Below are positions 7,469 to 16,790 of a stretch of DNA of 35,716 nucleotides, piece after piece. The position numbers and the translations under genes were made by a program. Location of the stretch: positions 1 through 35,716 of the forward strand of contig RPRB01000030.1 in NCBI GenBank assembly GCA_003818285.1, given 5' to 3'. Below the pieces are notes generated by a model that was not told the origin of the DNA, did no database searches, and saw only the letters and a list, made by a program, of their open reading frames with translations. This DNA is from Myxococcaceae bacterium. Lineage in GTDB: Bacteria; Myxococcota; Myxococcia; Myxococcales; Myxococcaceae. Positions within the stretch are counted from its first letter, which is position 1. Every line of letters starts with the position of its first letter.

Positions 7469-8815
7469 ATGAGCGCCGAGCCGCGTGCTCCGGGCTGGCC
7501 GGAGCGCCTGCTGCGTCCCTTCGCCGAGGTCCGGGCCGGTGAGGCGTGGGCCGCACTCGTCCTGACGGCGACCATCTTCCTCATCCTGACCGCGTACTAC
7601 CTGCTCAAGGTCATCCGCGAGCCGCTCATCCTGCTGAGCGGCGGGGCGGAGGTGAAGGCCTACGCCGCCGCGGGCCAGGCGCTGCTCCTCATCCCGGTGC
7701 TCCGCGCGCACGGAGCCATCGCCCGGCGCGTCAGCCGGCTGAAGCTGATCGCCATCATCTTCCTCTTCGTCGCCTCCAACCTCCTCGTCTTCGCGGCGCT
7801 CTTCCGAGCCGGCGTCTCCATCGGGCTGTCGTTCTATCTCTGGGTCGGCACGTTCAATTACCTGCTGGTCGCGACCTTCTGGAGCTTCGCCAACGACGTC
7901 TACACGCCGGAGCAGGGCAAGCGGCTCTTCGCCATCATTGGCGTGGGCAGCTCCGTCGGCGCGCTGGCCGGGGCAGCCCTGGCCAGCTTCCTGCTCAGGA
8001 AGCTCGGCCCCCTCGAGCTGATGCTCGCCTCCGCGGCGCTGCTGGTGATCACCGTCATCCCCTTCGCCCTGGTCAACGCTCAGAAGCAGTGCTGTCCCAA
8101 GGATCGCGGCCGCGAGATGGCGAAGGATCAGCCCCTGACCGGCGAAGGCGGGTTCCATTCGCTGATCAACGACCGCTACCTGCTCCTCATCGGCTTCATC
8201 ACCGTGCTCGCCAACTGGGTGACCAACTCCGGTGAGTACGTGCTGGACAAGACGCTCATCGAGGTCGCCCGGTCCAGCGCCATGGTCGACCCAGGCAAGT
8301 TCGTTGGCCAGTTCAAGGCCGACTACTTCTGGTGGGTGAACCTGATCGCGGTGATCGGCCAGTTCTTCGTGGTCTCCCGCGTGCTGAAGTACCTCGGCGT
8401 GGGTTCGGCTCTTCTGATCCTGCCCGTGGTTTCCATGGGCGGTGCGGTGGCCATCGTCCTCTTCCCGGCGCTCGCTCTCATCCGGGTGGCGAAGATCGCG
8501 GAGAAGGGCGTGGAGTACTCGCTCGAGACCACCGCGATCAACGCGCTCTACCTGGTCGTCTCCCGCGACGAGAAGTACAAGGCCAAGGCGGTGATCGACA
8601 CCTTCCTCGTCCGCGCGGGGGACGTATGCGCGGCGGTGTCGATCTGGATCGGCACGCACCTCGGCGTCCGGACCACCGGCTTCGCCGCGCTGAACGTCGT
8701 GCTCACCGCGACCTGGCTCTTCACCGCCTGGCGCGTCCGTTCCCTCCACCTCGTCCGGAGCGGCGCGATCGAGCCTCGTCCTCTCACCGCCGCCACCGCG
8801 GCTCCCTCCGTATGA
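7469..8815 (+). CDS. Nucleotide translocase (NTT/TLC, Npt1/Npt2-like) membrane protein
   Basis: A 448-residue polytopic membrane protein with about 10-12 hydrophobic segments. The opening (TAYYLLKVIREPLILLSGG), FYLWVGTFNYLLVATFWSFANDVY and GKRLFAIIGVGSSVGALAG are characteristic of bacterial relatives of the ATP/ADP translocases, a branch of the major facilitator superfamily. The classic members exchange ATP for ADP in obligate intracellular bacteria and plastids; relatives in free-living bacteria have no settled function. I chose the ATG at 7469 because AGAAGGG precedes it; an in-frame start further upstream has no support. Its stop overlaps the start of the next gene (ATGA), and the three genes 7469-12454 look like one operon. 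Confidence 0.85.
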   Translation: MSAEPRAPGWPERLLRPFAEVRAGEAWAALVLTATIFLILTAYYLLKVIREPLILLSGGAEVKAYAAAGQALLLIPVLRAHGAIARRVSRLKLIAIIFLFVASNLLVFAALFRAGVSIGLSFYLWVGTFNYLLVATFWSFANDVYTPEQGKRLFAIIGVGSSVGALAGAALASFLLRKLGPLELMLASAALLVITVIPFALVNAQKQCCPKDRGREMAKDQPLTGEGGFHSLINDRYLLLIGFITVLANWVTNSGEYVLDKTLIEVARSSAMVDPGKFVGQFKADYFWWVNLIAVIGQFFVVSRVLKYLGVGSALLILPVVSMGGAVAIVLFPALALIRVAKIAEKGVEYSLETTAINALYLVVSRDEKYKAKAVIDTFLVRAGDVCAAVSIWIGTHLGVRTTGFAALNVVLTATWLFTAWRVRSLHLVRSGAIEPRPLTAATAAPSV

Positions 8816-11523
8816 GCGCCTCCCCTCGATCGCCGGGGAGCCCCATCCACCGTGCGCTCCCTTTTGCCGCGCTCCTCTTCCTCCTGGTCGGCGCGCACGC
8901 GCTGCTGGAGACCGCCCGCGACGGGCTGTTCCTCACCGAGCAACCCGTCAGCCGGCTCCCCTGGCTGTACCTGGGCGTGACCGCCGGGGTGCTGGTGCTG
9001 ACTCCGCTGCAGCGCAGGCTCTGGGGAGGACGGAGCAGCGTCGCTCTCCTCCTGACCCTCCTCGGCGCGTGCGCCGTGACCCTGGCCTTCTGGGCGTTCG
9101 CGGCCGCGCGCGGGGCGGTGCTCGGCTTCTACGTGTGGACGGCGCTGTTCTCCTCGCTGATCTTCGTTCAGTTCTGGCTCGTGGCCGACGAGGCGTTCTC
9201 CGTCGACGAGGCCAAGCGCACGTTCGGCTTCATCGCCGCCGGTGGGCTCCTGGGCGCGGTGTCCGGGAACGCCGTGGCACGAGTGGCCCTGGGCTTCACC
9301 GACCCGAGAAACCTTCTCCTCGTCTCCGCCGGCGTCACCCTGGCCTCGGCCGCCCTTTCCCAGCTGGCGACCCGGGCGAGCTGCGCGGGTCACGTCGCCC
9401 AGCTGGAGGTGATGGCTCCGCGGGCCATGCCCGGGTACGTGAAGCGGGACCCCTACCTGCGGCTCCTGGCGGTGCTGGCGCTCCTCACGGCTGCCAGCGC
9501 CACGCTCATCGACTACCTGTTCAAGGCCGCGGTCGCCGCCGACACGGCGCCCGAGCGCATTCCTCGCATGGTCGCGAACGTCTACCTGGGACAGAGCGTG
9601 CTCGCCCTGGTGGTGGAGCTGGTGCTGGTGGGCTTCCTGCTCCGGAACACCGGGGTGACCCGGAGCCTCGCCCTGCTTCCGGTGGTGGTCCTGGCCGGAG
9701 CCTCCGGGTACGCGGTGGGCGCGGGCCTGCTGGCGATAGTGGTCCTGAAGACCCTCGACGGAGGGCTCCGCCCGTCGGTGTACCGGGTGGGAACCGAGCT
9801 GCTCTACCTCCCCATCGGTCCGGCCGAGCGGCGCGTGGTGAAACCCTCCATCGACACGCTCGGGCAGCGCGGGGGACAGGCCCTGGCCTCCCTCTTTCTC
9901 CTGGCGTTGCCTCTCTTGCCCCAGCAGCAGCAGATGGGGGCAACGACCGTGGGTCTCGCCGTGGTCGGCCTGGGCTGGGTTCAGGCCACCTGGATCCTCC
10001 GCCGCCGCTATCTCCAGCGCTTCCAGCGGGAGCTCGGTGCGGGACGGGTCTCCACTCCCGACATCGGAGGGCTGGACCTCGCCTCGGCGGAGGTGCTGGT
10101 CGCCGCGCTGGGCGCGTCCAGCGTGCGTGAGGTTCTCACCGCGCTCGACGTCCTCGCCGCGTCGGGGCGCCTGCGCCTGGTGCCCTCGCTGATTCTCTAC
10201 CACCCCGATCCGCTGGTGGTGCGCTCCGCGCTGCGCTACCTCGTCCCGGCCCGGCGACCCGACGTGGACGCCATGGTGCCCTTCCTCCTCCGGCACCCGG
10301 ATGATCAGGTCCGGGCGATCGCCGTGGAGCTCTGGGCGAGGGCCGGTCACGCGCCCGACGCGCTGCGAGCCGCCCTCGCGGACAGGAGTCCCCGGGTCCG
10401 GGCCTCGGCGCTCATTGCCCTCTCCGCCTCCGAGAAGGACGGGGAGGCCCGGAAGACTCTCGAGGCCATCGCCGCCGGTCCGGATCTGGAGGCGCGCCGC
10501 GCGCTCGCCTGGGGCCTGGGAAATGCTCCCCGCGAGGACCTGGTCCCGATCATCAAGACGCTGTTCCTCTCCGGAGACGTCGAAACACGCCGCGAGCTCC
10601 TCCGGGCAACCCCGGCCCTCCCTGCCCCTCCCCCCGAGCTGGTCTTTCACCTGGTGGAGCTGCTGGTCGAGCCCCGGCTCCGCTCCGGGGCGAGCGATGC
10701 GCTGGTTGCGATGGGAAGGCCGGCGCTGGTCGAGCTGGAGCGGCTCCTGCTCTCTCCGGACACCCCGTACGCGCTTGCCCGGGAGCTCCCTCCCTCCATC
10801 GCCCGGTTTCCCGCCGAGTCCGCGGCGGAGGTGCTGCTGAAGCGCCTGGTCCAGCCCCGCGGAGGTCTCGATCGCTTCCGCTCCCTCCGTGCGCTGAGCC
10901 AGCTGCGGCGAACCCACCCCCGTCTGTCCCTCGATCGAGCAGCGCTCGAGACGGCCCTCGATCTGGAGCTGCGGTCGGTGTTCCGGAACCGGGCGCTCCG
11001 GAAGGCGGGCACCGGACTCGGCCTCGCGCAGGGTGACGGGGCGGAGCCGGCGGGCACGCTGCTCCTCGACCTCCTGGGGGATCGGGCCCGGCGGGGAACC
11101 GAGCGGGCGTTCCGCGTCCTGAATCTCTTGTTCCCCGACGAAGGGCTGGAGCAGGTGTACCTGGGCGTCCGCTCCGAGGACCGGCGGCGTCGCGATGCCG
11201 CGCAGGAGGTGCTGCTGGAGCTCGTCCCGGCGCGGTGGCGGGAGCCGGTGCTCGCCCTCCTCGAGCCGGCCGCCCTGGTTCCCTCCTACGTCCCCAGCGT
11301 GCTGGGGGCCTCTCCCACGCCCGAGAGCTTCGTGGCCGCGCTGCTCGACCATCGCAGCGAGGTGGTGCGGCTGCTCACCCCCTGCCTCGCGCGGGAGCAG
11401 GGCTGGACCGGGGTGGTGACGCGGCTGCGCGCGGGGCCGCGATGCGCCGACGCCGAGTCCGCCGCCACCGTCGATCGTGCGATCGAGCAGCTCGAGCGCG
11501 GGCCCGAGGTGGTCCATGCCTGA
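8812..11523 (+). CDS. Nucleotide-translocase-like membrane protein fused to HEAT-type repeats
   Basis: A 903-residue two-part protein. Residues 1 to about 400 are a second translocase-like membrane domain with about 10-12 helices (ARDGLFLTE, FYVWTALFSSLIFVQFWLVA, GFIAAGGLLGAVSGNAVARV), clearly related to the upstream protein but divergent. After RRRYLQRFQREL the chain is soluble: residues ~430-720 are alpha-helical hairpins of HEAT/PBS-lyase type (DPLVVRSALRYLV, HPDDQVRAIAVELWARAG, DRSPRVRASALIALSAS, DLEARRALAWGLGNA), with a degenerate helical tail to residue ~890. The repeats would lie in the cytoplasm and probably bind a protein partner, for which the adjacent cNMP-domain protein is the obvious candidate. 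It starts at an ATG overlapping the previous stop. Transport substrate unknown. Confidence 0.83.
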   Translation: MSASPRSPGSPIHRALPFAALLFLLVGAHALLETARDGLFLTEQPVSRLPWLYLGVTAGVLVLTPLQRRLWGGRSSVALLLTLLGACAVTLAFWAFAAARGAVLGFYVWTALFSSLIFVQFWLVADEAFSVDEAKRTFGFIAAGGLLGAVSGNAVARVALGFTDPRNLLLVSAGVTLASAALSQLATRASCAGHVAQLEVMAPRAMPGYVKRDPYLRLLAVLALLTAASATLIDYLFKAAVAADTAPERIPRMVANVYLGQSVLALVVELVLVGFLLRNTGVTRSLALLPVVVLAGASGYAVGAGLLAIVVLKTLDGGLRPSVYRVGTELLYLPIGPAERRVVKPSIDTLGQRGGQALASLFLLALPLLPQQQQMGATTVGLAVVGLGWVQATWILRRRYLQRFQRELGAGRVSTPDIGGLDLASAEVLVAALGASSVREVLTALDVLAASGRLRLVPSLILYHPDPLVVRSALRYLVPARRPDVDAMVPFLLRHPDDQVRAIAVELWARAGHAPDALRAALADRSPRVRASALIALSASEKDGEARKTLEAIAAGPDLEARRALAWGLGNAPREDLVPIIKTLFLSGDVETRRELLRATPALPAPPPELVFHLVELLVEPRLRSGASDALVAMGRPALVELERLLLSPDTPYALARELPPSIARFPAESAAEVLLKRLVQPRGGLDRFRSLRALSQLRRTHPRLSLDRAALETALDLELRSVFRNRALRKAGTGLGLAQGDGAEPAGTLLLDLLGDRARRGTERAFRVLNLLFPDEGLEQVYLGVRSEDRRRRDAAQEVLLELVPARWREPVLALLEPAALVPSYVPSVLGASPTPESFVAALLDHRSEVVRLLTPCLAREQGWTGVVTRLRAGPRCADAESAATVDRAIEQLERGPEVVHA

Positions 11524-12454
11524 GCTGGATTCCGCCACCCTCGCCGAGCGGGTGCTGCGGTTGAGCCGGTCTCCTCCGTTCGACCGGATGTCGGTCGAGG
11601 ACCTCACGCTGCTGGCCGCCGCGGGCCGCGAGGAGGTCATTCCTACCCGGACGGTCCTGGCGCGCGCCGGAGAGCGCGCCTCGGCGCACTACGTCCAGCT
11701 CGCCGGCCGACTCCACGTGATGCTCGACCTGCCCGATCTGGTTTCAGCGGCGGGTCAACCGGGCGTGGGCGCGCTCTCGGTTCTCGGCGGCGCCGTGCTG
11801 CCTGCCGATCTGGTGGCCGAGGCAGGATCGGTGCTCCTGGTCCTGGACCGAGACGCGCTGATGGGCGTCCTCGAGGAGCACGGCCATGTGGCCCGGTCCG
11901 TCCTCCGGCTCTTCGCGCTGAAGCTCTTGGAGGCCCGGCGCCTCGCGCCGGTGGCACCGCCGCCCCCCCGGCCACCTCCCACCGTCCGCCTGGACCTGGT
12001 GTCGAGGATGCTGACCCTGCGCGATGCGCTCGGGCTCGGCATGGACGGCATGGCAACCATCGCCCGCCTGGCCCGGGTGGCGCGGGCGCGGCAGTACGAG
12101 GCGGGCTCGATCGTCGCGAGCGAGGACCAGCCGGCGGACGTGCTCGTTCTCCTCGAGGGTTCGCTGGAGCTCATATCCCCCGAAGGCACCACGCGGACCG
12201 TTCGCCCTGGCGAGGTGCTGGGCTTCGCGCAGTCTGTCGCCGGCGTGGCCGCGGATGGCCAGCTCCTCGCGACCTCCGAGTCCACGGCCCTGGTGCTCCC
12301 TCACCGCGAGCTGACCGAGGACATCGAGGACGACGACGCGCTCTGCCTGGAGCTCATCCGGAGCTTCGCGGCGCAGCTGTGGACCGCGCTGAGCGCGGCG
12401 CGGTTCGACCGGAGGCTGTGGGAGCCTCAGCCTCAGTCTCAGCCCGGCGGTTGA
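11516..12454 (+). CDS. Protein with two degenerate cyclic-nucleotide-binding-like domains
   Basis: A 312-residue soluble protein. Two CRP-type beta-roll domains can be traced: residues ~20-150 (FDRMSVEDLTLLAAAGREEV, ALSVLGGAVLPADLVAEA) and ~180-300 (YEAGSIVASEDQPADVLVLL, EGSLELISPEGTTRTVRPGE), joined by a Pro-rich linker (PPPPRPPPT). The second keeps a PGEVLGF element of the phosphate-binding cassette, but neither has the arginine that normally clamps the cyclic phosphate, so ligand binding is doubtful. There is no DNA-binding helix-turn-helix, which argues against a transcription factor. Its ATG overlaps the end of the HEAT-fusion gene by 8 bp, so it is co-translated and probably regulates or stabilises the translocase pair. 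Its 3' end overlaps the opposite-strand gene by 16 bp. Confidence 0.78.
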   Translation: MPELDSATLAERVLRLSRSPPFDRMSVEDLTLLAAAGREEVIPTRTVLARAGERASAHYVQLAGRLHVMLDLPDLVSAAGQPGVGALSVLGGAVLPADLVAEAGSVLLVLDRDALMGVLEEHGHVARSVLRLFALKLLEARRLAPVAPPPPRPPPTVRLDLVSRMLTLRDALGLGMDGMATIARLARVARARQYEAGSIVASEDQPADVLVLLEGSLELISPEGTTRTVRPGEVLGFAQSVAGVAADGQLLATSESTALVLPHRELTEDIEDDDALCLELIRSFAAQLWTALSAARFDRRLWEPQPQSQPGG

Positions 12455-14091
12455 TCGTTCTCCGGCCGATCGAGGCCGACGACCCGGAGCGGCTCACCTT
12501 CGAGCAGATGCACCCGGAGGGGGAACTGCCCGGCGCGCCCGGTGGAGAGGTCGAGCACGCGCTGGCCCTCGCCGAGGTCCGGAACCGTCACGCACAGCTC
12601 GGCGGGCCCCTGCGGTGAGACAGGCAGCGCCGCCGCCGAGTCAGCCGACAGGTAGAGCTTCGCCACGGGTGCGGGCGCGGCACCCAGGCCGACGGCGTCG
12701 GCCCGGTCCTCCACGCAGAGGCGTCTCCCGTCCTTCACCTCCGGCCGGGTGAGGGAGGACAGCCGGAGCAGGTACCGGCGGAGGATCCGGTCGCGCCGGC
12801 CGCGGAGGATGCGTTCCAGCTCGTCGCGGATCAGCGGGTCATAGAGGTGCGCCTCGTCGATGACGGCCGACAGGGAGGCGTCATCGAGATGAGAGATGAT
12901 CCGTGCCATCCACGCTCCGTCGGCCTCCTCCATCGCCGAGAATGCCGTGTTGGGATAGCCGACGTGCCAGTCCTCCGGCACGAACTCGCGATCGTCGAAG
13001 TAGCCCCAGATCGGCCCCGCCGGACCGAAGCTCGCGCGCTCCCAGGGGCGCTCGATGGCGCCGAAGGTGATGAAGTCCGCGCCCATGGCACCCCAGTCGA
13101 TGTAGTAGGTGTAGCCCACCCGCCGGGAGACGCTGTCCCAGTCCAGCAGGCCCCCGAGGGTGTCTCCCCAGTCGATGAGGTAGTGCTCGACGTGGCCACG
13201 CCCGTCGGGCTGTTCGATCCAGACCGCGAGCGTGTTTTGCGAGCGCGCGTCGTGGTGGTTGGTCCAGGCGCCGAGGAGGCGGGAGCCGCGGAGCTCGCGC
13301 CGGTCCTGGTGGTCCACGACGTCGTTGGGATCATCGCCCCGCGTGCCGTCGTAGAGCCACGGGCCGAGGGGCTTCCCGGGCAGGAACTCGCTGGCCAGGG
13401 CGCGGACGGTGCCGTCCTTCTCGCGGGGGAGGTGCGCCATCAGCTCGAGGATCCGCTCCCGGGTCAGGGTCTTCCCGCCCGGGTCCTTGATCTCCTCGGT
13501 GGGCAGCTCCAGCTCCTCGGTGCGCACGTGCACGATGCGGTTGCAGGGCCCCTGGAAGCCCGCGGCGAAGTACAGCCGGCTCCCCACCACGTCGCCGGTC
13601 GAGGCGCGGCCCCACTGCTGGACGGCGTCGAACTTGAGGACGTGGACCTTCCCCGACGAGGTCTTGATCCGGAAGCCGGGGTTGGCGCCGTCGATCTTCA
13701 CTCCCACCACCTTCCAGGGGTGGTCCTCGCTCGGCGAGAGTCCGGTGCACGGCCCGCGGGCGATCTCCTGGGGGGTCATCGGTTGCCGGCCTAGGCGATT
13801 GACGAACCAGCTCGAGTCGGGGACCTCGTCGAGCGCGTTGACGTTTCGCGCCGGCCGCCCGGTCTCGAGGAGCCACACGTGGCTGAGCGGGCGGAAGAGG
13901 ATGTGATCCGCGCCATCCCAGTACAGCGGAACGAAGGACTGCTCCGGCTTCGGCCGGAACGGACGCCGGTCGTCGTCCTCCCAGAGCACCGGCTTCGTGG
14001 AGAAGGGTCGGGCGCCGCCGCAGGCCAGGAGACCGGCGAGGGCGAGCGCCGCGACCGGGGCGAGCGCCGCACCGCGTCCCTGGGGTATCAA
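12439..14091 (-). CDS. Lipoprotein with a HipA/Fam20-like (pseudo)kinase pattern
   Basis: A 550-residue protein that I do not recognise as a named family. The N-terminus is a lipoprotein signal (ALALAGLLACGG, lipidated Cys at 24). The body has the landmarks of a HipA/PI3K/Fam20-type kinase in the right order: KVHVLKFD (K153, candidate ATP-binding lysine), SEFLPGKPLGPW (hinge-like, 234-245), WTNHHDARSQNTL (H279-x-D281-x4-N286, catalytic-loop pattern) and HYLIDWGDTLGG (D307-W-G, a DFG-like metal site). The C-terminal ~110 residues look like a separate beta domain. The start is a TTG at 14091 six bases from the divergent PAP2 start; a GTG at 14130 is the alternative and would overlap it. Function is inference; it could be a pseudokinase. 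Confidence 0.72.
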   Translation of the reverse strand: MIPQGRGAALAPVAALALAGLLACGGARPFSTKPVLWEDDDRRPFRPKPEQSFVPLYWDGADHILFRPLSHVWLLETGRPARNVNALDEVPDSSWFVNRLGRQPMTPQEIARGPCTGLSPSEDHPWKVVGVKIDGANPGFRIKTSSGKVHVLKFDAVQQWGRASTGDVVGSRLYFAAGFQGPCNRIVHVRTEELELPTEEIKDPGGKTLTRERILELMAHLPREKDGTVRALASEFLPGKPLGPWLYDGTRGDDPNDVVDHQDRRELRGSRLLGAWTNHHDARSQNTLAVWIEQPDGRGHVEHYLIDWGDTLGGLLDWDSVSRRVGYTYYIDWGAMGADFITFGAIERPWERASFGPAGPIWGYFDDREFVPEDWHVGYPNTAFSAMEEADGAWMARIISHLDDASLSAVIDEAHLYDPLIRDELERILRGRRDRILRRYLLRLSSLTRPEVKDGRRLCVEDRADAVGLGAAPAPVAKLYLSADSAAALPVSPQGPAELCVTVPDLGEGQRVLDLSTGRAGQFPLRVHLLEGEPLRVVGLDRPENDQPPG

Positions 14092-14097
14092 CGGCCG

Positions 14098-14808
14098 GTG
14101 GACGATTCGCGGACCCTGAACGACGAGCACCGGAGGCGATGGCTGGCCAGAGCGGTGCGGGACCGCCTTCGCCGGCACCGTCGCGGACTCGTGGAGCTGT
14201 TCCTTGGGGTGCTGGTTCCGCTCTGCGGCCTGGCGCTGCTGGCGCGCTGGGTGGTGCATCCCCAGCCGCCGCCATGGGACCTGGCCGTGCTCGGGTGGAT
14301 TCACTCCTACGCCACTCCCGGGCGGGACCGGGTGGCGGTCGGGATCACCGACCTCGGGACCTGGGGCGGCGTGACGCCGATCAGCATCGCGCTGCTCTCC
14401 TACCTCCTCTTTCGCCGGCGGATCGCCCTGAGCCTGTTCGTCCTGCTGGCGATGGTGGGTTCGTGGATCCTGAACGATGCCGCGAAGGCCTTCTATGGCC
14501 GGGAGCGGCCCGCGCTCTGGAACTCGGCCACGCGAGCGATGTGGTTCGGGTTCCCCAGCGGACACGCGATGGCGTCCATGGCACTGGGCACGGTGGTCAC
14601 GATCCTCGCCTGGCGAACCCGCTTCCGGTGGGCGGTGCTCGCGCTCTCGGCGGTCTTCGTCCTCGCGGTGAGCGCCTCGCGCCTGTACCTCGGAGTCCAC
14701 TATCCCTCGGACGTCATCGCGGCCTGGCTCGCCTCTCTGTCCTGGGTGATTGGCCTGCGCCTGCTCGTGTTTCCTAGAGCGCATAGGTCACCCCGAACGC
14801 GAGGCTGA
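14098..14808 (+). CDS. PAP2-family membrane phosphatase
   Basis: A 236-residue integral membrane protein with about six helices and the complete PAP2 signature: KAFYGRERP (KX6RP), FPSGHAMAS (PSGH) and SRLYLGVHYPSDV (SRX5HX3D), so it should be catalytically active. Family members remove phosphate from lipid phosphates such as phosphatidic acid, phosphatidylglycerol phosphate or undecaprenyl pyrophosphate; which one is used here cannot be told. The basic N-terminus (RRHRR) precedes the first helix. No ATG fits; GTG at 14098 is the best start. The gene starts six bases from the divergent lipoprotein gene and its 3' end overlaps the opposite BamA-like gene by 35 bp. Confidence 0.87.
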   Translation: MDDSRTLNDEHRRRWLARAVRDRLRRHRRGLVELFLGVLVPLCGLALLARWVVHPQPPPWDLAVLGWIHSYATPGRDRVAVGITDLGTWGGVTPISIALLSYLLFRRRIALSLFVLLAMVGSWILNDAAKAFYGRERPALWNSATRAMWFGFPSGHAMASMALGTVVTILAWRTRFRWAVLALSAVFVLAVSASRLYLGVHYPSDVIAAWLASLSWVIGLRLLVFPRAHRSPRTRG

Positions 14809-16384
14809 AGGAGGTCAGGCGCAGTCCTTGACTGAAGGGCTCGGTGCCGATGCCGACGACGAACTGGAAGTTGCTCGCGCCGAGGATGGACGCGGTGCGG
14901 ACGCCCAGCTCGGCCGAGAGCCGGAGCGCGTCCCAGCGGAAGTTGCGCAGGTGCGCATCGAAGACGTTCCCGAAGCTCACCCCGGCGACGCCGTCGAGGT
15001 AGGCGAAGACCGGCCAGCGCCAGGAGAGCTGTGCGCCGAGGGCGCTGCGGTCCCGGAGCCGTCCGCGGAGGAAGCCGACGAACGGCTCGGCGCCGCCCAC
15101 CGTGACCAGCTGCCAGAAGGGGACGGGCTCGCTGCCCAGCGGGTCGGCGAACTCCGCCAGGACTCCCAGGCTGAGCACCCGGCCTTTCCCGGTGACGTCC
15201 CACGACCCCTCGACACCGGCGCCGTAGCGGATCCACGAGCGGTCGAAGCCGCGGGTCGTGTCCACCGAGGGGGCGGCGGCCACGCCCACCCGGACCCCGC
15301 TCCGGTTGATGTCCGGCGAGCGGGTGTCCAGCGACGCGCGGATGAAGAGCTCGGCGGCGGTGGTGTTCTCCTGGTATCCCGGCGGGGGCGGAAGCTCACC
15401 GCGTTCGACGCGCTGGGTGAGTGTCGGGTCGCTGCAGCAGGAGTACTCGCGGAACACCGTCCGGGTGAGGCGGGCCCCGGTCTCGACCCGTGCCTGTTTC
15501 GCGGCGTAGAGATAGCTCAGGGAGCCGCCGACGACGTCTGTGCCGTAACGCGACTTGAAGGTGTCCGGCGTGAGCGATCCGATCCCGAAGTAGAGGTTGT
15601 CCGGCCGCCGGTTCCAGTGGCCCTCCAGGGCGATCGAGCTCTCGTTGGTGAAGCGGTACCGGTCTCCGAGGCCGATGGTGATCCAGTTGGAGCCACCCCA
15701 GGCGAGATCCGCGGTCACCTTGTTTCTGGCGACGAAGGTGTCGTCCCAGAAGAAGTGGAGGCCGATGCTGGGGCGGAAGCCAAAGTTGAGGAAGAAGGTG
15801 GGGAAGATGCCGCCCTTGTGGTCCGGGCCGAAGGCGAAGAAGTTGAAGACGGCGGGGCCCCAGTCGCCTTTCTCCGCGGCGGTGGAGAGTGCCCCGACGG
15901 GGACGCGGATGACGTACTCGGTGACCAGGTAGACCGGGATGAGGATCACCCGGGGGACCCAGATCAGCACCTCACCCGCGGTGGGAGGCGGTGGCTCCTG
16001 GCCGCGGTAGTCCGGCACGGGGCGCTTCGGGGGCGGCTCGGTCTCGGACTCGGGCGGAGGCGAGGTGGCGGCGGCGGGCTGCGCGGCAGATGCGGCCGGT
16101 GCCGAAGCGTCCGGCGGGGTCTGTCCTTCCGGGGAGGAGGCCGTCGAGGAGGGTGCCGGGGCGGACGCCGGCGGTGAGGAAGGTGACGAGGAGGAGGGCG
16201 CTGCGCCAGAACCGGCCGGCGAAGTTCCCGGCGTCCCGGGCGGCTGCTGCTGGTCCGCCCGTGCGATGGACGGGCGAACCGCGGAACCGACCAGGATGGC
16301 CCACAGCCCGATCGCGAGCGCGCGGCGCGAGAGCGCTCGTTCCTTCCTGGCTCGGAACCGCGCGACCGCCGTCGCTGGGCCCAT
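14774..16384 (-). CDS. BamA/TamA-like outer-membrane barrel protein with Ala/Pro/Ser linker
   Basis: A 536-residue protein. Residues 1-45 form an export signal (ALAIGLWAILVGSAVRPSIARA). Residues ~46-130 are a low-complexity linker rich in Pro, Ser and Ala. Residues ~145-170 (EVLIWVPRVILIPVYLVTEYVI) are a hydrophobic segment, and the rest is amphipathic beta strand resembling the surface-antigen (Bac_surface_Ag/Omp85-like) barrel. No POTRA domains are present, so it is not BamA itself. A strong ribosome site (GGGAGG, 8-9 bp ahead) fixes the ATG at 16384, although the frame is open further upstream. It probably acts in the outer membrane; role unknown. A perfect palindrome lies in its promoter region. 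Confidence 0.8.
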   Translation of the reverse strand: MGPATAVARFRARKERALSRRALAIGLWAILVGSAVRPSIARADQQQPPGTPGTSPAGSGAAPSSSSPSSPPASAPAPSSTASSPEGQTPPDASAPAASAAQPAAATSPPPESETEPPPKRPVPDYRGQEPPPPTAGEVLIWVPRVILIPVYLVTEYVIRVPVGALSTAAEKGDWGPAVFNFFAFGPDHKGGIFPTFFLNFGFRPSIGLHFFWDDTFVARNKVTADLAWGGSNWITIGLGDRYRFTNESSIALEGHWNRRPDNLYFGIGSLTPDTFKSRYGTDVVGGSLSYLYAAKQARVETGARLTRTVFREYSCCSDPTLTQRVERGELPPPPGYQENTTAAELFIRASLDTRSPDINRSGVRVGVAAAPSVDTTRGFDRSWIRYGAGVEGSWDVTGKGRVLSLGVLAEFADPLGSEPVPFWQLVTVGGAEPFVGFLRGRLRDRSALGAQLSWRWPVFAYLDGVAGVSFGNVFDAHLRNFRWDALRLSAELGVRTASILGASNFQFVVGIGTEPFSQGLRLTSFSLAFGVTYAL

Positions 16385-16790
16385 CGGCCGACCCTCCCGT
16401 CCGGAAACCGCCTTGGCTAGCCAAGCACACGTGAGGGGGTTGCGGCCCGGGCAATGCCGGCGGACAGTCCAATTAAGGGGGGCGCCCGCCCGACCCCGGC
16501 CACGGTCATACTCGCCGGTCCGTGGACGGGGTGACAGTTGCTCCAGCGCTGGACGTACGCCGCCCGAGGAGCCTCGCCTCTGCCGGAGGGGGGTCGTGAC
16601 TTCTGGTTGCACCTCGTCACGCCCGGGCGAGGTCACGGGCCCGCTCCGGGCTGCGCGCGGACTCGCGCCCCATCGCCGCGCCGGCGGCCCGGGCGTGAGT
16701 GATCGCGTCCGCCGGTCGATCGGTCTCGAGGAGCGCCAGGGCAAGCGGGCGGCCGTGCAGCGAGCTCCTTGGCGCGACATAGATTCGCCC
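16385..16790. other. Divergent intergenic region between barrel gene and ferredoxin-MBL gene
   Basis: About 405 bp with no gene I can support; the open frames across it are extensions of the flanking frames or antisense shadows. It contains the 14-bp palindrome at 16412-16425 and an inverted repeat built on CCTCG/CGAGG with GTCAC repeats (about 16613-16635). Promoters for both flanking genes must lie here, but no clear -35/-10 pair is visible. Confidence 0.45.
16412..16425. promoter_or_regulatory. Perfect 14-bp palindrome, possible operator
   Basis: CTTGGCTAGCCAAG is a perfect inverted repeat about 28 bp upstream of the barrel gene's start codon, where a dimeric repressor or activator could bind. 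No regulator gene is adjacent, so the binding protein is unknown. Confidence 0.35.

Follow-up and report, generated by a model that had tools for sequence, protein, structure and literature searches.

An operon with a translocase-like pair in a Myxococcaceae bacterium and its association with a putative extracytoplasmic kinase

In the window, i.e. the whole analysed stretch of 35,716 nucleotides from a Myxococcaceae bacterium, three consecutive genes encode two ATP/ADP-translocase-like membrane proteins and a soluble protein with domains of the cyclic-nucleotide-binding type (cNBD). What would such a set do in a free-living bacterium? Fusions of a translocase domain with HEAT repeats (NTT-HEAT) have been described in many free-living bacteria, with a function that is not known, and so have cNBD genes immediately downstream of them and triple NTT-HEAT-cNBD fusions (Major, Embley and Williams 2017, PMC5381601). 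Since this arrangement was described in 2017 and NTT-HEAT matches are found in 148 of the 195 genomes of the phylum, the operon alone is a variant of a described arrangement, and it is the surroundings that are new. A literature search, with subscription papers and preprints outside its range, found no description of the cluster.

The three-gene operon

The first gene (7469..8815, plus strand) encodes P0001, a standalone translocase-like (TLC/MFS) inner-membrane protein of 448 aa, here called NTT. It matches the Pfam family TLC (PF03219) with 35.2 bits against a cut-off of 21, and it falls in one clade with the NTTs of the K1 loci described below. The second gene (8812..11523, plus strand) encodes P0002, an NTT-HEAT protein of 903 aa, in which a translocase-like domain of 12 helices (about residues 10-410; TLC, 23.7 bits against 21) is followed by a C-terminal HEAT solenoid (HEAT_2, 34.1 bits against 27.7). 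The third (11516..12454, plus strand) encodes P0003, a soluble protein of 312 aa with two cNBD-like domains, 2xcNBD, matching cNMP_binding in two stretches (54.1 bits, cut-off 27.5). An NTT domain, then HEAT repeats, then a cNBD gene downstream is the pattern of the NTT-HEAT family, and the window has all three. A sequence-only reading had placed the three open frames at these coordinates and proposed that they are translationally coupled. The positions agree with our check, and the coupling is read directly in the sequence, as an ATGA shared by NTT and NTT-HEAT (8812-8815) and an 8-bp overlap of NTT-HEAT and 2xcNBD (11516-11523).

The model of P0002 (pLDDT 86, pTM 0.73, built from 17 sequences) combines a membrane part of 12 helices with a helical solenoid. 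The five top PDB matches of this model are solved ATP/ADP translocators, AtNTT1 of Arabidopsis and NTT1 of Chlamydia (CpNTT1), and by this comparison the fold of the membrane domain is of the MFS/NTT type. For P0001, sequence comparison only was used, giving E 1e-7 with 9j3n. The Pfam scores and the P0002 fold uphold the earlier description of a nucleotide-transporter-like pair, one member with HEAT repeats.

The same reading suggested a nucleotide-related channel or sensor under control of a cytoplasmic regulator; here this is weighed as a cyclic-nucleotide-gated unit with no functional connection to its neighbours. The operon does encode two cNBD folds, and a comparable order of genes has been known since 2017 (PMC5381601). 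However, the fold is that of a transporter and not of a channel, and a motif alignment shows that P0003 has lost both the Glu and the Arg of the phosphate-binding cassette in both domains. The aligned sequences of the two-domain family lack the cassette Glu (FGE) in both domains; the single cNBDs beside conventional NTT-HEATs (L095-L098) keep FGE...PRSA. Because this signature is lost, binding of cAMP in the usual mode, and hence a role as cAMP sensor, appears unlikely for P0003, and a structural role or another ligand is more likely. Taken with the strong linkage to the neighbouring genes shown below, this leaves the gated channel or sensor with very little credibility. NTTs are paired in another way at two of the loci with single cNBDs (L095, L096), where two full NTT-HEAT genes stand in tandem and are succeeded by a ROK-family gene and one cNBD whose cNMP signature is intact.

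In AtNTT1, the importance of four charged residues has been established (PMC10654386). In a fragment alignment with Chlamydia NTT1, the standalone NTTs have E or D at the position of the intramembrane Glu, and they retain the Lys of KGKAAID. The Lys of RDTKD is changed to Arg, the Glu of AELWG to Gly and the Lys of FGKSGG to Asp or Gln. Against the NCBIfam NTP/NDP exchanger model TIGR00769, P0001 and P0002 score 27.8 and 14.2 bits, far below the cut-off of 387. From these sequences, a nucleotide or another phosphorylated compound is a plausible substrate.

The operon is not a chance arrangement, because homologous sets of NTT, NTT-HEAT and 2xcNBD occur in other genomes. In one (G057) all three genes lie on one strand, and in another (G077) the NTT is divergent. 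The gene order is conserved in relatives, and the missing synteny that the sequence-only reading had named as a refutation is not observed; the relatives are free-living, as it had assumed. About six NTT-type stretches are found in the 5.8 Mb of the genome itself. It has a second NTT-HEAT and 2xcNBD pair that lacks an NTT (contig C40, 56% identical), a conventional NTT-HEAT (C279) and a decayed set (C290; L014, 533-2504), in which the NTT frame is broken and NTT-HEAT and cNBD survive only as remnants. The decayed set adjoins a polyphosphate kinase 2 gene (L014 2616-3524, minus strand). The gene of a 474-aa protein with no Pfam match (L012:8917-10341) shares 4 bp with the second 2xcNBD gene. 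P0002 as sole query had no match in the first scan of genome contigs. Neither P0002 nor K1 was found in the plasmid records searched, nor P0001 in the phage records searched.

The genes K1, PAP2 and K2

The unit was earlier taken to end at 12454. The three genes stand, but the conserved cluster continues to about 16393, over a kinase-fold lipoprotein, a phosphatase and an outer-membrane barrel that had been overlooked and that give the best functional clue. The lipoprotein gene, K1 (12439..14130, minus strand), is followed by a gene for a PAP2-superfamily phosphatase (14155..14808, plus strand; Pfam PAP2 70.2 bits, cut-off 27.2) and by K2 (14774..16393, minus strand, open frame to 16858); all three starts are approximate. 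K2 is assigned as an Omp85-type outer-membrane barrel through its homologues, as PF01103 matches 17 of 19 aligned homologues and not the window K2 itself. K1 and K2 are convergent with the NTT operon and lie outside it. G077 has homologues of both minus-strand genes, as the two genes beyond its NTT.

K1 has the lipobox LLAC, with the Cys codon at about 14022, and a lipobox-like motif, by a loose pattern, is present in 55 of 73 K1 proteins; the protein is predicted to be located outside the cytoplasm. No Pfam family matches K1, and sequence profiles gave only chance-like armadillo matches and faint hints of HipA; the assignment comes from the fold. The model (pLDDT 93.8, 53 homologues) shows a kinase fold with a C-terminal beta-sandwich. 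Foldseek ranked the Golgi casein kinase Fam20 first (E 1.9e-4), and structural alignment of the predicted model gave Z-scores of 14.9 for CtkA, 14.1 for Fam20C, 13.1 for PI4K-II alpha and 10.9 for HipA. The catalytic Lys, Asp and Asn and the metal-binding Asp are present, with the D-x4-N spacing and a DWG/DFG-like motif as in the kinase core. In the alignment K130, D258 and N263 are found in 53 of 53 sequences and D284 in 52. By its model, K1 is a putative kinase with a Fam20/HipA/PI4KII-like fold and conserved kinase-core residues; it could also be a pseudokinase or use another donor.

The fold of K1 bears on a different reading of the transporters, in which their substrate is not a nucleotide but, for example, a lipid or sugar bearing a phosphate. 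The NTT-like proteins would carry or flip it, and K1, PAP2 and K2 would then modify it and insert it into the outer membrane. Lipid chemistry would suit PAP2 and the PI4KII-like fold, the charges of the binding site are altered, and an S1P exporter also turns up as a structural match of P0002, though a much weaker one than the NTTs. Against this, the five top matches are all ATP/ADP translocators, and K1 would still need a phosphate donor. We regard this reading as unlikely.

Some further copies of these genes were seen. A second intact K1-K2 pair (L125, 8500-11704; K1 64% identical) lies on C40, about 28 kb from the second NTT-HEAT and 2xcNBD pair, and a broken K1 stands beside a PAP2 gene on C82 (L126, 4539-6164). 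At L163:7659-9920, PAP2 and an Omp85-type K2 share one uninterrupted frame, either a fusion or a frame accident, which is topologically odd for an inner-membrane phosphatase. Beside the NTT operon of G057, an Omp85 barrel carries an N-terminal domain with a DxDRHxxQ motif (L044:10686-13346). It was considered as a K1-K2 fusion, but comparing profiles gave no support for a common origin of its N-terminus and K1, and it is not counted.

Co-location of K1 with the translocase-like genes

We selected K1 loci by K1 similarity alone. From 501 relatives, 80 loci were taken, and the relatives belong to Myxococcota, Acidobacteriota, KSB1, Eisenbacteria and Calditrichota. The main counts use all open frames, as greedy gene calling missed some genes. 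K2 is found in 63 of the 80 loci and an NTT or NTT-HEAT, often with a cNBD, in 38, with nearly all NTT scores between 180 and 370 bits. These NTT-linked loci come from Myxococcota, Acidobacteriota and KSB1. Sorangium cellulosum (L190) is a carrier that can be cultivated. About half of the 80 loci lack an NTT, partly owing to short contigs; where both flanks exceed 5 kb, 16 of 33 loci have an NTT within 5 kb of K1. From the roughly six NTT-type stretches per 5.8 Mb of the window's own genome, an NTT is expected by chance at about 2% of such loci. At a deliberately high background of 5%, the probability for 37 of 80 loci is about 7e-27, for loci that are not fully independent because some come from the same or related genomes.

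The gene orders vary, with K2-K1-NTT-HEAT-cNBD-NTT at L163, NTT-HEAT-cNBD-NTT-K2-K1 at L193, NTT-HEAT-cNBD-K2-K1 in an acidobacterium (L217) and K2-K1-NTT in KSB1 (L213). At six loci (L145, L147, L155, L161, L163, L195) K1 and NTT are on the same strand with gaps of 2-48 bp. A PAP2 gene is present at 19 of the 80 loci, a raw count given without an exact background rate for this family. Protein serine/threonine kinases, response regulators and SDR enzymes also recur near K1, but they were rejected as partners, their distances being scattered and their families large.

In a tree of 106 NTT domains, the standalone NTTs of the K1 loci and of the window form one clade of 30 rows (SH-aLRT 99). Another 17 standalone NTTs, from relatives with no K1 in the fetched loci, lie outside this clade. 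Most K1-linked NTT-HEATs group with that of the window in a clade of 18 (SH-aLRT 99), and others fall in a second clade of short NTT-HEATs. Standalone NTTs of another clade (L103, L104, L105) have a conserved aminotransferase upstream and an NAD-dependent epimerase-like protein downstream. Among the 195 genomes of the phylum, an NTT of the window type (identity at least 40%) is found in seven, K1 in seven and both in six (Fisher p 7e-10, a guide only because the genomes are related). That the NTT set is associated with K1 at the gene level we consider practically certain.

A possible nucleotide supply across the envelope

What could join these genes is a trans-envelope system, whose half in the inner membrane and the cytoplasm would be the three-gene operon. 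NTT and NTT-HEAT probably function as a pair, and they would transport a nucleotide through the inner membrane, probably outward. The likeliest cargo would be ATP or another NTP, exchanged for its spent form. The HEAT solenoid and the 2xcNBD protein may act as docking and gating parts on the cytoplasmic side. The nucleotide would serve K1 as a lipoprotein kinase outside the cytoplasm, where no ATP is expected, and K1 and the K2 barrel, often together with PAP2, may phosphorylate a substrate of the envelope or cell surface. We give an even chance to the view that the pair moves nucleotide for K1. The narrower proposal, dedicated bacterial export of ATP or another NTP through paired NTTs to run a periplasmic or cell-surface kinase, is a more tentative one. 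By what route ATP enters the periplasm of Gram-negative bacteria has been stated to be unknown (PMC7432876), which we count in favour of the supply model. Counting against it are the altered charges of the NTT substrate site, the TIGR00769 scores below the cut-off, the K1 loci that lack an NTT and the convergent orientation of K1 and K2 in the window.

The direction of transport might also be the opposite. Import is the activity of those NTTs that have been characterised in intracellular parasites (PMC5381601), and the cluster includes an outer-membrane barrel and a phosphatase. Nucleotides from lysed prey or biomass might thus cross the outer membrane, be processed by periplasmic PAP2 and K1, and be imported by the NTT pair under cytoplasmic control. 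However, a kinase with a conserved ATP-type core would be odd in a salvage pathway, and no further gene family recurring near K1 points to salvage, which makes scavenging improbable in our judgement.

Through this gene association, the uncharacterised NTT-HEAT/cNBD arrangement gains its first consistent functional partners, and the entry of ATP into the Gram-negative periplasm becomes testable. A dedicated supply of nucleotide to a kinase outside the cytoplasm, if true, would be a parallel to Fam20C in the eukaryotic secretory pathway.

The window set shares an NTT domain, C-terminal HEAT repeats and a directly downstream cNBD with the NTT-HEAT and NTT-HEAT-cNBD fusions described before (PMC5381601), but it has a preceding standalone NTT and two degenerate cNBD domains and is tied to a kinase-fold lipoprotein, an Omp85 barrel and PAP2. 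The fold of the membrane domain and some charged positions are those of the plastid and chlamydial ATP/ADP translocators AtNTT1 and CpNTT1, whereas identity is low, several substrate-site charges are replaced, and the window proteins form their own clade in free-living hosts. K1 has the fold and kinase-core residues of Fam20C, HipA/CtkA and PI4K-II, and Fam20C acts outside the cytosol, as is predicted for K1. Unlike these, K1 is a bacterial lipoprotein with an extra C-terminal beta-sandwich and about 10% identity, and is a putative kinase. Finally, the K2 homologues match PF01103 like other barrels of the Omp85 superfamily, but K2 is paired with a kinase-fold lipoprotein.
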